Source of the DNA: an uncultured Erysipelotrichaceae bacterium
GTDB taxonomy: Bacteria > Bacillota_I > Bacilli_A > Erysipelotrichales > Erysipelotrichaceae
Assembly: GCA_944326825.1 (NCBI GenBank)
Contig: CALVFL010000008.1
Span: 1 to 37,788 of the forward strand
Length of the DNA stretch: 37,788 nucleotides
Reading direction: 5' to 3'
The position numbers and the translations under genes are program-made. Below the pieces are notes generated by a model that worked only from the letters and a program-made list of their open reading frames with translations, was not told the DNA's origin and made no database searches. Positions 11,558-16,061 of the stretch are shown here, one piece after another (the first letter of the stretch is position 1; every line of letters begins with the position of its first letter).

Positions 11558-13025
11558 AATATTCAACGCAGGCCTTGACCGCCTTCAGCCAGCCTTCATA
11601 TAGTTTATCAGCTTCTTCTTTACTCATCTTTGGTCTGAAGATCTCAACATCATCGTATTTAAAATCATCAAATTCATAAAAGCCGACAGCCAAACCTGCC
11701 AGTCTGGCCGCTCCTAAAGCAGTCGATTCACTGACTTTATTGCGGATGACATTCATATTCAGGATATCGCTTTGAAACTGTAATAAGAAATTATTCTTGC
11801 TGGCACCCCCATCCACTTTCAGATCATTTATGATAGTGTTGCTGGCACTTTGCATGATATCAATAAGATCTTTGGCTTCATAAGCCATCGCTTCTAAAGC
11901 TGCTCTGATGATATGGCGATAGTCGGTATCTCTTTTTAAATTGAAGATCATGCCTCGAGCTTCCTTTTTCCAGTATGGTGCTCCCATGCCGACAAAGGCC
12001 GGCACGATGATCACGCCCTGGCTTGAAGGAACTGAAGCAGCGATCTTTTCGGTATCATTGACATCTTTAAACAAGTGCAAGCTATCTCTTAACCATTGTA
12101 AAAGCGATCCGGAAGTGAAGATACTGCCTTCTAAAGCATAAGTGACCTCTTCGCCAATACACCAGCCGACCGTTGTCAAAAGGCCGTCTTTTGAATCGAC
12201 GATCTCTTCTTTGGTGTTCATAAGCAAGAATCCGCCGGTACCGTAAGTATTCTTGATCGCCCCTTTTTCAAAACAGGATTGTCCGAATAAAGAAGCCTGC
12301 TGATCACCGATGATCGAAGCGATCGGCACGCTTTCATTAAAGAAGAAGTTAGGATCGATATAACCCAGTATCTTTGCGTTGTCAGTGATCTCAGGAAGCA
12401 TCGTTTCAGGTATTTCAAATAGCTTCAAAAGCTCATCATCCCACTTTAAAGTATGAATGTTAAAAAGGAGCGTTCTTGAAGCGTTGGTCACATCGCTTAA
12501 AATAACTTTGCCAAGCGTCATCTTATATAACAGCCAGGTTTCGACCGTTCCGAACATCAGATCTTCAACAGGACATTTAAACTTGATGTTTTCTAAGATC
12601 CAGCGGATCTTTGTGGCACTGAAATAAGGATCTAAGATCAGTCCGGTCTTGGCTTTGATCAGCTCTTCGACTCCCATCTTTTTATAGCGTTCAACGATAG
12701 CGGAAGTCTGCCGTGATTGCCAGACGATGGCGTTATAGACCGGAAGGCCGCTCTTGCGATCCCAGACGATCGTCGTTTCTCTTTGATTGGAAATGCCGAT
12801 CGCTGCCACTTCGCTAGGTGTCATCTCATGATTTTGAAAGATGTCGGCAATGACCCCCAAAACTGAAGTCCAGATCTCATTGGCATCCATCTCCACCCAG
12901 CCGTCATTTTTAAAGATATTCTTGACGCTTTTAGCCTCCGATGCAACGATCCTTTGTTTCTTATCAAACAAGATCGCTCTTGTTGATGTCGTTCCCTGAT
13001 CGATCGCTAAAACATACTTTTTCAT
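11556..13025 (-). CDS. glpK: Glycerol kinase
   Basis: FGGY-family kinase (489 residues) that makes glycerol-3-phosphate. Clear marks are the N-terminal ATP motif LAIDQGTTSTRAILFD, ISNQRETTIVWDRKSG, the catalytic IGDQQASLFGQ, and GALKGTYG-type NTYGTGGFLL. The HPr-phosphorylatable histidine loop of Firmicute enzymes is not obvious to me. Its ATG overlaps the upstream stop by 4 bases (ATGA), and AAGGAG lies inside the end of that gene. No glpF or glpD is adjacent, so coupling to a translation GTPase is unusual. Confidence 0.95.
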   Translation of the reverse strand: MKKYVLAIDQGTTSTRAILFDKKQRIVASEAKSVKNIFKNDGWVEMDANEIWTSVLGVIADIFQNHEMTPSEVAAIGISNQRETTIVWDRKSGLPVYNAIVWQSRQTSAIVERYKKMGVEELIKAKTGLILDPYFSATKIRWILENIKFKCPVEDLMFGTVETWLLYKMTLGKVILSDVTNASRTLLFNIHTLKWDDELLKLFEIPETMLPEITDNAKILGYIDPNFFFNESVPIASIIGDQQASLFGQSCFEKGAIKNTYGTGGFLLMNTKEEIVDSKDGLLTTVGWCIGEEVTYALEGSIFTSGSLLQWLRDSLHLFKDVNDTEKIAASVPSSQGVIIVPAFVGMGAPYWKKEARGMIFNLKRDTDYRHIIRAALEAMAYEAKDLIDIMQSASNTIINDLKVDGGASKNNFLLQFQSDILNMNVIRNKVSESTALGAARLAGLAVGFYEFDDFKYDDVEIFRPKMSKEEADKLYEGWLKAVKACVEY

Positions 13026-15439
13026 AAATGCTCCTTTTCATTATGCTGTTTCATCGCTTTATCCTTTAAATAAGCGATCTCGCTGAATAGAGTCCTCGTA
13101 GAAAGACGATAGGCTCCATCAGAAAATATAGATACCTGGATCAGATTATCGTCACTGATGACCGTGATATTATAATCATCTTCCAGTTCCTTGACCTGTC
13201 TTTGAATATAGGCATCGGCCGTTACATTCTTGGGAGTATAGATGATCTTGAAGTCATCGTTTCCCTTTTTGGAAGGATTATTGACTTTATAGGCATCAAA
13301 AATCACCCACATCTTGGCCTTTTTCATACTGCGATAAAAACTGAGATCATTTAAAAGACTGTCCAGATCCTCATGATCATCATAAGCATAAAGGACATTG
13401 TAGCCATCAACGAGATAAAGCTTCTCTTTGGGCTTGCTTTTGGTCTTGTAATTAGAATTAGGCTTGACTGTCTTTTTCATATACTTGTCTTTTTTAACAG
13501 GATTGGCCTTCGCAAATACTTTTTTCACTTCATCATCATCAACCTTCAAACGGTTATAAACAGCCACTTCGCCCTTATCAACTTTTAAAAGCGGTTTAAT
13601 ATGAGCCAATTCAAAAGTTTCTTCAGCACTCACATAATAACCGGCGCCCTTTTTAAAGAAGATGCTGCCGCTGAGTTCATCTTTATCATTTAAAGGATCA
13701 TAATCACGCTTTTGCACTTTGGCTGTATCAAAACCATGAAAACTATGATCAATATAAAGATGATTGCGAATGATATACTCATCATCCAGCAGTTTATTTA
13801 GATCATTTAAACTGATAATGCCTTTGATGATATTCAGATCTTCTTTTGTGCTTATCTCATACTTTGTTTGATAAGCATCCAAAAGATAGATGAAATGGGC
13901 TGTATCAGCTGTCGGCACCTCTGCTCTGAAGCTTTCAAAAGGCTCTAGGATCACACTTTCATTAACCAGTAAAGCATTACGCAACGCAAAATCAACAGCT
14001 CTTTTCACATCATCATTGACAGTATGATTTAAAGAAGTTTTGATCGCTTCTAAAGAAATATGGACATCATTTAAAGGATAACCGCCCTTAACCCCTTTAA
14101 ACTGGTGCTCGCTTAAATAATTCATCGCAAAATCAAGATAGTTGTCTTTCAGATTGTAAGGGTTGGCAACGATCCTTCCTGCACCTCTTTTTAAAGGTTT
14201 AAGGCGGAGATGCACTTCGGCATAATGTCTTAAAGGTTCAAAATGACCGATCCCGTAACTGTCCTTCAAGATCGTTTCTTCATAATTTACTTCCCCTTTG
14301 ACAAACTCTACTTCCAGACCCTGCTTTTTAAGCTCTTCTTTTAAAAGTTCTTTATCCATAAGCCCCATCAAAGAAACTCTGACACACTCATCCGTCTTGA
14401 CATTTAAGCTGGGATTTTCCCTTTGCAGCTGCTTTAAAGCTTTGACTAACTCATTTCTTTTAGAATCCTCGATCATGACTTCATAGTTTAAAAAAGGCAC
14501 CATCTCTTTGTTCAGATCCTTTTTATCATCATTGATATATTCACCGATCAAAAGATTCTTCAGACCCTTGATCGCTACCAGTTCAGAAGCCACTACTTCA
14601 TTTACTGTTTTATAAGAGTTGCCTGAATAAAGTCTTAATTCATCAGCCTTTTCATCTTTGATGAATTCTTTTACTTTTAAACTGCCGCCGTTGATCTTTA
14701 AATATGTCAAAAGATTGCCTTTAGGATCATGATTGATGCGATAGACATAAGCTTTAAATTCTGAAGGATATTCCTTAGGCTTAAAAAGTAAAGCGATGAC
14801 TTCTAAAAGCTTGGTTATGCCGCTGAGTTTTAAAGCCGAGCCGCTAAGGCATGGGTAAAACTTTTCTTTTTTAAAGAGTTCCCTGATCTTTTCATCGTCG
14901 ATAGTGTTATTTTTAAGGTATTCTTCAAACAGCTGCTCATCCAAAAAAGCCGCTTCTTCCAAATAAGTTTCATTATTAAAATTTATTATCTCAGCTTCTA
15001 ATTCCTTTTTGATCCTGTTTAGGACTGTATCTTCATCTTCAAAAGCGAGATCTTTCTTGTTTAAAAAGAATAATACCGGTATATGATAACGTTTTAAAAG
15101 CTGAAAGATCTTCTTAGTATAAGATTTGAGGCCGCTGCTCATGTCAATGATCAATATAGCATAGTCAAGGATCGGCAAGACCCTTTCCATTTCGGCACTG
15201 AAATCTAAATGACCGGGCGTATCTTCTAAAATATATTCCTGATCCCGATAAGTAAAACGGGCTTCCTTGGCATAGATAGTGATGCCTCTTTGTCTTTCAT
15301 AAGCACTGTAGTCCAAAGCACTGTCTTTATGATCGACCCGGCCGAGCTTTAAAATAGATTTAGACATGTATAAAAGGGCTTCACTTAAAGTCGTTTTCCC
15401 TGCATCTACATGAGCTAAAAGACCGATCGTCACTTTCAT
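13022..15439 (-). CDS. TetM-like translation GTPase fused to a YacP/Rae1-like NYN domain
   Basis: An EF-G/TetM-type ribosomal GTPase of 805 residues with a C-terminal nuclease-like domain. The G domain shows AHVDAGKTT (G1), RGIT (G2), EDTPGH (G3) and NKKD (G4); domains II to V follow to about residue 630. After a Lys-rich linker, residues 669-805 match the PIN-like NYN fold of YacP/Rae1: LVDGYNVL with Asp678, VIFDAYK with Asp715, VTADAYIQ with Asp742, and VISDD at 763-764. Family knowledge: TetM-like proteins clear drugs from the ribosome, and Rae1 cuts mRNA in the A site. I infer a ribosome-targeted rescue or cleavage factor, not proven drug resistance. The -10 box is 6 nt before the ATG, with no ribosome site. 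Confidence 0.85.
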   Translation of the reverse strand: MKVTIGLLAHVDAGKTTLSEALLYMSKSILKLGRVDHKDSALDYSAYERQRGITIYAKEARFTYRDQEYILEDTPGHLDFSAEMERVLPILDYAILIIDMSSGLKSYTKKIFQLLKRYHIPVLFFLNKKDLAFEDEDTVLNRIKKELEAEIINFNNETYLEEAAFLDEQLFEEYLKNNTIDDEKIRELFKKEKFYPCLSGSALKLSGITKLLEVIALLFKPKEYPSEFKAYVYRINHDPKGNLLTYLKINGGSLKVKEFIKDEKADELRLYSGNSYKTVNEVVASELVAIKGLKNLLIGEYINDDKKDLNKEMVPFLNYEVMIEDSKRNELVKALKQLQRENPSLNVKTDECVRVSLMGLMDKELLKEELKKQGLEVEFVKGEVNYEETILKDSYGIGHFEPLRHYAEVHLRLKPLKRGAGRIVANPYNLKDNYLDFAMNYLSEHQFKGVKGGYPLNDVHISLEAIKTSLNHTVNDDVKRAVDFALRNALLVNESVILEPFESFRAEVPTADTAHFIYLLDAYQTKYEISTKEDLNIIKGIISLNDLNKLLDDEYIIRNHLYIDHSFHGFDTAKVQKRDYDPLNDKDELSGSIFFKKGAGYYVSAEETFELAHIKPLLKVDKGEVAVYNRLKVDDDEVKKVFAKANPVKKDKYMKKTVKPNSNYKTKSKPKEKLYLVDGYNVLYAYDDHEDLDSLLNDLSFYRSMKKAKMWVIFDAYKVNNPSKKGNDDFKIIYTPKNVTADAYIQRQVKELEDDYNITVISDDNLIQVSIFSDGAYRLSTRTLFSEIAYLKDKAMKQHNEKEHL

Positions 15440-15579: not shown

Positions 15580-15846
15580 TCATTTATAAACTTCTCTTCG
15601 ATGGCCGACAGACAAAGCCAGTATTATCAACTCTTCGTCTTTGATCTTGCAGATCAAACGATAATCACCGATTCTATAACGCCATTGTCCGCTGTGATTC
15701 ACTGTTAATCGTTTGCCCTGTCTGTGAGGATCTTCGCAACCGACCAGATTTTTTCCGATCCAGGCATAAATTATCTGTCTTGTATATCTATCAAGCTTTT
15801 TAAGTTCTTTTATTGCCCGTTCAGTATATTCTACGCTGTAACTCAT
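15580..15846 (-). CDS. RelE/ParE-superfamily toxin
   Basis: An 88-residue toxin of the RelE superfamily, probably an mRNA interferase acting on the ribosome. The fold signature is clear: YSVEYTERAIKELKKLD at the N-terminus, GKRLTVNHSGQWRYRIGDYRLICKI in the middle with the basic Arg residues of the active site, and the C-terminal VGHRREVYK. The start overlaps the antitoxin stop by 4 bases. Target and specificity cannot be read from sequence. Confidence 0.9.
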   Translation of the reverse strand: MSYSVEYTERAIKELKKLDRYTRQIIYAWIGKNLVGCEDPHRQGKRLTVNHSGQWRYRIGDYRLICKIKDEELIILALSVGHRREVYK

Positions 15847-16061
15847 AAATCTAAAAGTTCCTTGGCTTCTTCATGAGTATAGGTTTTAGGGTTTTTAAGA
15901 TATTCACGATAAGCTTCATCAGCGACAGTGATATCATACTCATCTTCAATCTTTTCAAACAAAGATCTTTTGAAAGCCTCGGCTACTGAAATGCCATGGA
16001 TCTTAGCGTAACTTTCGGCAAGTTTTCTTTCGCTTTCGGTTAATCTGATTGAAAAACTCAT
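15843..16061 (-). CDS. RelB/DUF6290-like antitoxin
   Basis: A 72-residue antitoxin: an N-terminal ribbon-helix-helix (SFSIRLTESERKLAESYAKIHGISVAEAFKRSL) for DNA binding and an acidic C-terminal tail (TYTHEEAKELLDL) that would wrap the toxin. GGAGG lies 6-7 nt upstream of the ATG. A 13-bp palindrome between promoter and gene suggests autoregulation. Confidence 0.88.
   Translation of the reverse strand: MSFSIRLTESERKLAESYAKIHGISVAEAFKRSLFEKIEDEYDITVADEAYREYLKNPKTYTHEEAKELLDL

Follow-up and report, generated by a model that had tools for sequence, protein, structure and literature searches.

The window, a stretch of 37,788 nucleotides from an uncultured Erysipelotrichaceae bacterium (assembly GCA_944326825.1, contig CALVFL010000008.1), contains on the minus strand, at positions 13022 to 15439, a gene for a fused protein of 805 amino acids in which a translational GTPase, a linker and an NYN_YacP (Rae1) nuclease domain follow one another. 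Judged from its sequence, the gene is probably the Rae1 of this lineage, a YacP/NYN endoribonuclease attached as C-terminal domain to a TetM/EF-G-like GTPase, and not a tetracycline protection protein itself. The product is most probably an mRNA endonuclease that is directed to the ribosome and assisted by the GTPase; the GTP-driven placement of the nuclease, which was put forward in the initial annotation and which we infer as well, is plausible. An order of gut bacteria would in this way have incorporated Rae1 into a GTPase of a ribosome-binding type. Related species form a natural dissection series (full length, domains IV and V deleted, nuclease only), by which the help of a GTPase in loading an A-site nuclease becomes directly testable.

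Since work on Rae1 in 2017, YacP has reportedly been known as a ribosome-associated endoribonuclease. Rae1 of Bacillus subtilis is described as an A-site mRNA endonuclease, and for its route into the A site of a paused ribosome these papers offer a model (PMC6613710, PMC12320835). The fusion architecture itself is already known: a C-terminal YacP-NYN domain was reported on Tet proteins of ten Clostridiales and read as possible antibiotic resistance (Atkinson 2015, PMC4342817). A literature search, whose reach did not include the main Rae1 papers, gave no later publication on it. The fusions of Atkinson 2015 and that of the window have the same domain order, a Tet-like GTPase followed by a C-terminal YacP-like NYN domain; the fusion of the window differs in being order-wide, in apparently taking the place of rae1, and in a GTPase part that belongs to a clade separate from the true Tet proteins. 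New here are this apparent replacement, the retention of the catalytic aspartates throughout the homologues, the natural deletions and the non-Tet identity.

Domain composition of the fusion protein

A single genuine open reading frame (ORF) with its ATG at 15439 was called for the gene. In the Pfam analysis of the 805-residue product, GTP_EFTU was matched at residues 3-219 (E = 9.5e-43) and NYN_YacP (PF05991) at residues 676-802 (E = 2.6e-25; 89.7 bits, gathering cut-off 24.6), and EFG_IV, EF-G_D2 and EFG_III gave weak matches below the cut-off. The G domain (residues 1-220; 14780-15439, minus strand, like all parts below) was delimited by Pfam and motif inspection, with motifs G1 to G5 intact (AHVDAGKT, RGITI, DTPGH, NKKD, SGSA). 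Domains II (residues ~221-305; 14525-14779) and III (residues ~306-380; 14300-14524) were placed by the weak EF-G_D2 and EFG_III matches together with an AlphaFold2 model. Domain IV (residues ~381-495; 13955-14299) was defined by a weak Pfam match, by motifs and as the stretch that is deleted in two relatives described below, and domain V (residues ~496-576; 13712-13954), which had no Pfam match, by the model and its structural alignment with EF-G and TetM. The linker (residues 577-668; 13436-13711) was modelled with low confidence, is predicted to be disordered and carries the motif NRLKVDDDEVKKVFAKANPxKK. The nuclease domain (residues 673-802; 13034-13423) was assigned by Pfam and by sequence matches in the PDB.

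The AlphaFold2 model, computed from an alignment of six sequences, was of moderate quality (predicted local distance difference test score, pLDDT, 68; predicted template modelling score, pTM, 0.49). Its residues 1-574 have an EF-G-like fold and superpose on EF-G and TetM across all domains (Z ~31). The nearest solved sequence was TetM (3j9y; E = 1.5e-46) for the N-terminal part and for the whole protein, and B. subtilis YacP/Rae1 (5mq8/5mq9; E = 3.1e-10) for the C-terminal domain. With the motifs G1 to G5 and the modelled EF-G-like multidomain fold both present, the N-terminal part is assigned to the EF2/EF-G family of translational GTPases.

The initial annotation had proposed a translational GTPase joined to a Rae1/YacP-type NYN domain with all four acidic active-site positions, and both proposals stood. 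D678 (VDGYN; codon 13406-13408) aligned with the first aspartate of B. subtilis Rae1, and D715 (IFDAY; 13295-13297), D742 (TADAYIQ; 13214-13216) and D764 (SDDNLIQ; 13148-13150) were identified in the NYN alignment. All four are present in the window protein and were retained in 125 of 125 distinct NYN sequences examined. The C-terminal domain and B. subtilis Rae1 have in common the NYN fold family, the four aspartates and the motif GA.R.S.REL, whereas Rae1 is a standalone protein of ~170 amino acids encoded in the operon cysS-mrnC-rlmB-rae1-sigH and the domain of the window is fused and located elsewhere. Thus a Pfam score above the cut-off, the four aspartates and YacP as nearest solved relative place the domain in the Rae1/YacP family; a standalone gene between rlmB and sigH, which is a feature of gene context and not of the catalytic family, was not found. 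The fusion is not an assembly join, as the architecture recurs, at 51-55% identity, in homologues from its own genus and from an Erysipelotrichaceae metagenome-assembled genome (MAG) that was sequenced independently.

Distribution of the fusion and the rae1 locus

Genomes of the window's family, order, class and phylum were surveyed. The genome of the window (1.38 Mb) contains one NYN_YacP domain, that of the fusion. In the family sample, NYN_YacP was matched in 88 of 146 genomes. The domain lay in an ORF of at least 750 amino acids in 77 of these 88 (table count), and only in shorter frames in ten, among them several at contig ends, two internal deletions and one frameshift; the remaining match was a weak partial one in an unrelated long frame. 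The order sample gave matches in 105 of 148 genomes. Within the class and phylum samples (296 and 392 genomes), NYN_YacP above the cut-off was confined to the window's order and one other family, in which it is also fused; nearly all matches lay in ORFs of more than 800 amino acids, and the GTPase is present at those loci that were examined. In class and phylum alike, each NYN_YacP domain above the cut-off is taken to be the fusion or a derivative of it.

The operon of B. subtilis, Listeria, Aerococcus and C. difficile reads cysS-mrnC-rlmB-rae1-sigH, with rae1 flanked by rlmB and sigH. The cysS-mrnC-rlmB block is present in the genome of the window and in seven others (six with the full fusion, one with the NYN domain only), in most of them with sigH, rpmG, secE or nusG downstream. 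A query with B. subtilis Rae1 gave no match at this block in any of the eight genomes, the rae1 slot being empty. Because the operon survives with an empty rae1 slot in eight genomes and no other rae1 was found, the simplest reading of these sequences is replacement of the copy in the operon by the fused one.

Fusions of Monoglobus and Agathobacter are ~34-35% identical to the window protein. In Paenibacillus, the GTPase and the NYN domain are encoded by separate genes on one replicon (a Rosetta-stone pair). Spread of the fusion by plasmids or phages was considered and rejected: full-length 'plasmid' matches were large replicons of Monoglobus and Agathobacter, and matches of the GTPase clade on viral contigs were without NYN. 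Two unannotated 'Bacteriophage sp.' sequences from human faeces (MT835514.1 and MT835563.1) encode full-length fusions and are possibly bacterial contigs. Standalone Rae1 on C. difficile 'plasmids' (such as NZ_CP149721.1) was also discarded; the sequence represents the chromosomal gltX-cysS-rlmB-rae1-sigH-rplK region and is probably a fragment, mis-assembled or mis-labelled.

Natural deletions and proposed mode of action

In one related genus (g3, 36 genomes), most fusions comprise ~810-870 amino acids. Two species encode proteins of 594-603 amino acids that lack exactly domains IV and V and retain G, II, III, the linker motif and NYN. These two proteins are 63% identical to each other over their whole length, so the deletion was inherited. 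In five other species, a gene of 201-205 codons encodes the linker motif and NYN only; the linker-equivalent stretch with its conserved motif is thus kept even here. The NYN-only genes occupy the slot ung-[X]-dusB-hslO-ftsH, which in other members of the genus holds the complete fusion. Neither a GTPase remnant nearby nor a GTPase of the clade elsewhere was found in the genomes of these five species, some of which are incomplete. The ratio of non-synonymous to synonymous substitutions (dN/dS) was 0.04-0.13 where dS was unsaturated, and NYN is under purifying selection after the loss of the GTPase. A sixth NYN-only gene has a different place in the tree and is a less clear case. In the NYN tree, L120/L121 and the domain IV-V-less L103/L104 nest inside the full-length fusions of the genus. 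The deletions are backed by repetition and synteny, not by closed genomes. In one further locus (L105), the reading frame changes within the fusion and leaves a GTPase ORF of 712 and an overlapping NYN ORF of 160 amino acids, through sequencing error, frameshift or genuine split.

No genome without NYN in the sampled family retains a fusion-type GTPase; an apparent lone GTPase of this family (in G109) proved to be a canonical Tet protein on inspection. Since the GTPase was trimmed in relatives and yet never retained without NYN in this sample, the nuclease is what selection keeps, which suggests that it is the working end of the fusion.

EF-G and TetM enter the A site with domain IV. The GTPase part of the fusion would, like these factors, dock at the factor-binding site when the A site of the ribosome is empty or blocked. 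The nuclease, held on the linker of ~90 residues, would enter the A site next; as it and domain IV would need the same space, the two would probably take turns there. The tethered nuclease would cut the mRNA and thereby commit the paused ribosome to rescue. As recruiter or A-site opener, the GTPase would raise efficiency and, in some lineages, become dispensable; within the window's genus, domain IV is already under weaker constraint. Proteins of the type G-II-III-NYN are compatible with a nuclease working in the former place of domain IV. Tentatively, the fusion can be regarded as a dedicated ribosome-quality-control factor whose GTPase uses GTP to bring the mRNA endonuclease into the A site; G-II-III-NYN would then be its minimal version, the nuclease standing in for domain IV. 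This is possible rather than probable.

Several observations weigh against a GTPase-assisted Rae1. The genomes are mostly MAGs, and that of the window is 82.6% complete. Modelled alone, the NYN part reached a pLDDT of 40, the model being unreliable for want of a deep enough alignment, and the identity of this domain therefore rests on sequence. The relatives devoid of the GTPase indicate that NYN can work without it and that coupling is not obligatory; as the nuclease persists in five species at the syntenic slot, the GTPase is not needed everywhere. Most fusions, and the NYN-less homologues too, have domain IV as their best conserved part, and lone GTPases occur in other bacteria; the GTPase thus has, in addition, a function in its own right, which the favoured account does not cover. 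In the window's genus and in g19, domain IV is no better, or even less well, conserved than the G domain, a pattern by which the GTPase is important in most lineages and relaxing in that of the window. A highly diverged fusion of 764 amino acids from the same genus (G131) retains an intact NYN, and Pfam recognises only G among its EF-G domains.

The NYN-less relatives were located in a tree of the GTPase parts, in which the window grouped with them and apart from TetM-type and EF-G sequences (root position uncertain). They come from Ligilactobacillus, Paenibacillus, Subdoligranulum and Clostridium-like and actinobacterial contigs (the host names of two viral-collection contigs are our reading). 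These members of the 'translation factor GTPase family' (Ligilactobacillus pMP118 etc.) share with the fusions the domain IV signature H[FY]EPL[RK]HY and, in most, the loop HT.GGDF, and unlike the fusions have no nuclease domain. On pMP118 of Ligilactobacillus salivarius UCC118, the NYN-less gene lies next to a putative gene for metal homeostasis and an additional rpsN, which encodes ribosomal protein S14.

These data bear on the main rival, that the polypeptide combines two independent activities, NYN being Rae1 and the GTPase an unrelated EF-G-like ribosome factor, and that the fusion only co-regulates them, the nuclease not being placed by GTP hydrolysis. The lone GTPases (Ligilactobacillus, Paenibacillus, Subdoligranulum and one further family of the class, f13), the GTPase-less NYN proteins of g3, the length and predicted disorder of the linker, and a domain IV strongly conserved in its own right agree with such an arrangement. 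It is unlikely nonetheless, since the fusion is retained very broadly across the order and in Clostridia, the GTPase is never retained after NYN loss within the sampled family, and the conserved linker motif travels with NYN.

A further rival is processing of stable RNA: NYN would trim rRNA or tRNA, as suggested by Atkinson 2015 following Anantharaman and Aravind (PMC4342817), and the GTPase would bring it to ribosomes or assembly intermediates. In its favour, ancestral rae1 adjoins the genes for the rRNA methylase RlmB and mini-RNase III. This rival is improbable, given that the nearest characterised relative, B. subtilis Rae1, is described as cutting mRNA in the A site (PMC6613710, PMC12320835) and that the gene is missing from 58 of 146 family genomes, which would be odd for an enzyme of rRNA maturation.

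Comparison with tetracycline protection proteins and gene neighbourhood

Domain IV of the fusion family has the signature H[FY]EPLRHYAEVH, and loop III has HLKHTEGGDFR; in the window these read GIGHFEPLRHYAEVHL and LNHTVNDDVKRA, respectively, and at the position of the latter, TetM has YYSPVSTPADFR. The loop of the window is without YSPVSTP and Pro509, the TetM residue that overlaps tetracycline (PMC7456112, PMC8161019). Because the TetM triple mutant S508A/P509A/V510A is still active (PMC4750697), loop divergence alone is no proof. Both curated Tet models rejected the protein (NF012153, 290.8 bits vs a cut-off of 775; NF033148, 177.8 vs 1100), and canonical Tet genes co-occur with the fusion in 12 genomes; these two results are stronger than the divergence of the loop. 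TetM/TetO and the GTPase of the window have in common the five-domain EF-G-like architecture and the G motifs (26-27% identity), whereas the window protein lacks the Pro509 loop and the TetM-type C-terminus RRPNSR.DK.R.MF and scores below the curated cut-offs.

Function as a tetracycline ribosomal protection protein with NYN as accessory, for which TetM as best solved match, the EF-G/TetM-like fold and database naming speak, is highly improbable in view of the curated scores, the separate clade, the missing loop (mutations of which TetM tolerates), a domain IV that is drifting in the window's genus and deleted in relatives retaining NYN, the canonical Tet genes in 12 fusion genomes, and a sensitive L. 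salivarius strain (minimum inhibitory concentration 1 ug/mL; PMC10778751), a species whose listed megaplasmids carry the lone homologue, this strain itself not having been checked for it. By sequence comparison the fusion is therefore considered not to be a bona fide Tet protein, and the term 'ribosomal-protection' of the initial annotation was abandoned. Its remark that such proteins are easily annotated only as tetracycline resistance agrees with the NCBI label 'TetM/TetW/TetO/TetS family tetracycline resistance...'. For these chromosomal genes, the label is probably a mis-naming, which matters for surveys of resistance genes.

A conserved gene neighbourhood of the fusion was ruled out, glpK and pantothenate genes being linked to it within the genus only. 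In the window, the start of a glpK-like FGGY kinase gene overlaps the stop of the fusion by 4 bp (ATGA; 13022-13025, minus strand), and the two may therefore be co-translated. Identity as a defence system was rejected, PADLOC giving no match. Approximately 140 bp upstream of the fusion start lies a putative toxin/antitoxin pair on the minus strand, consisting of a ParE/RelE-type toxin (PF05016, E = 1.4e-16; 15580-15846), which was unmatched in the loci of relatives, and a putative antitoxin of 72 amino acids (15846-16061).

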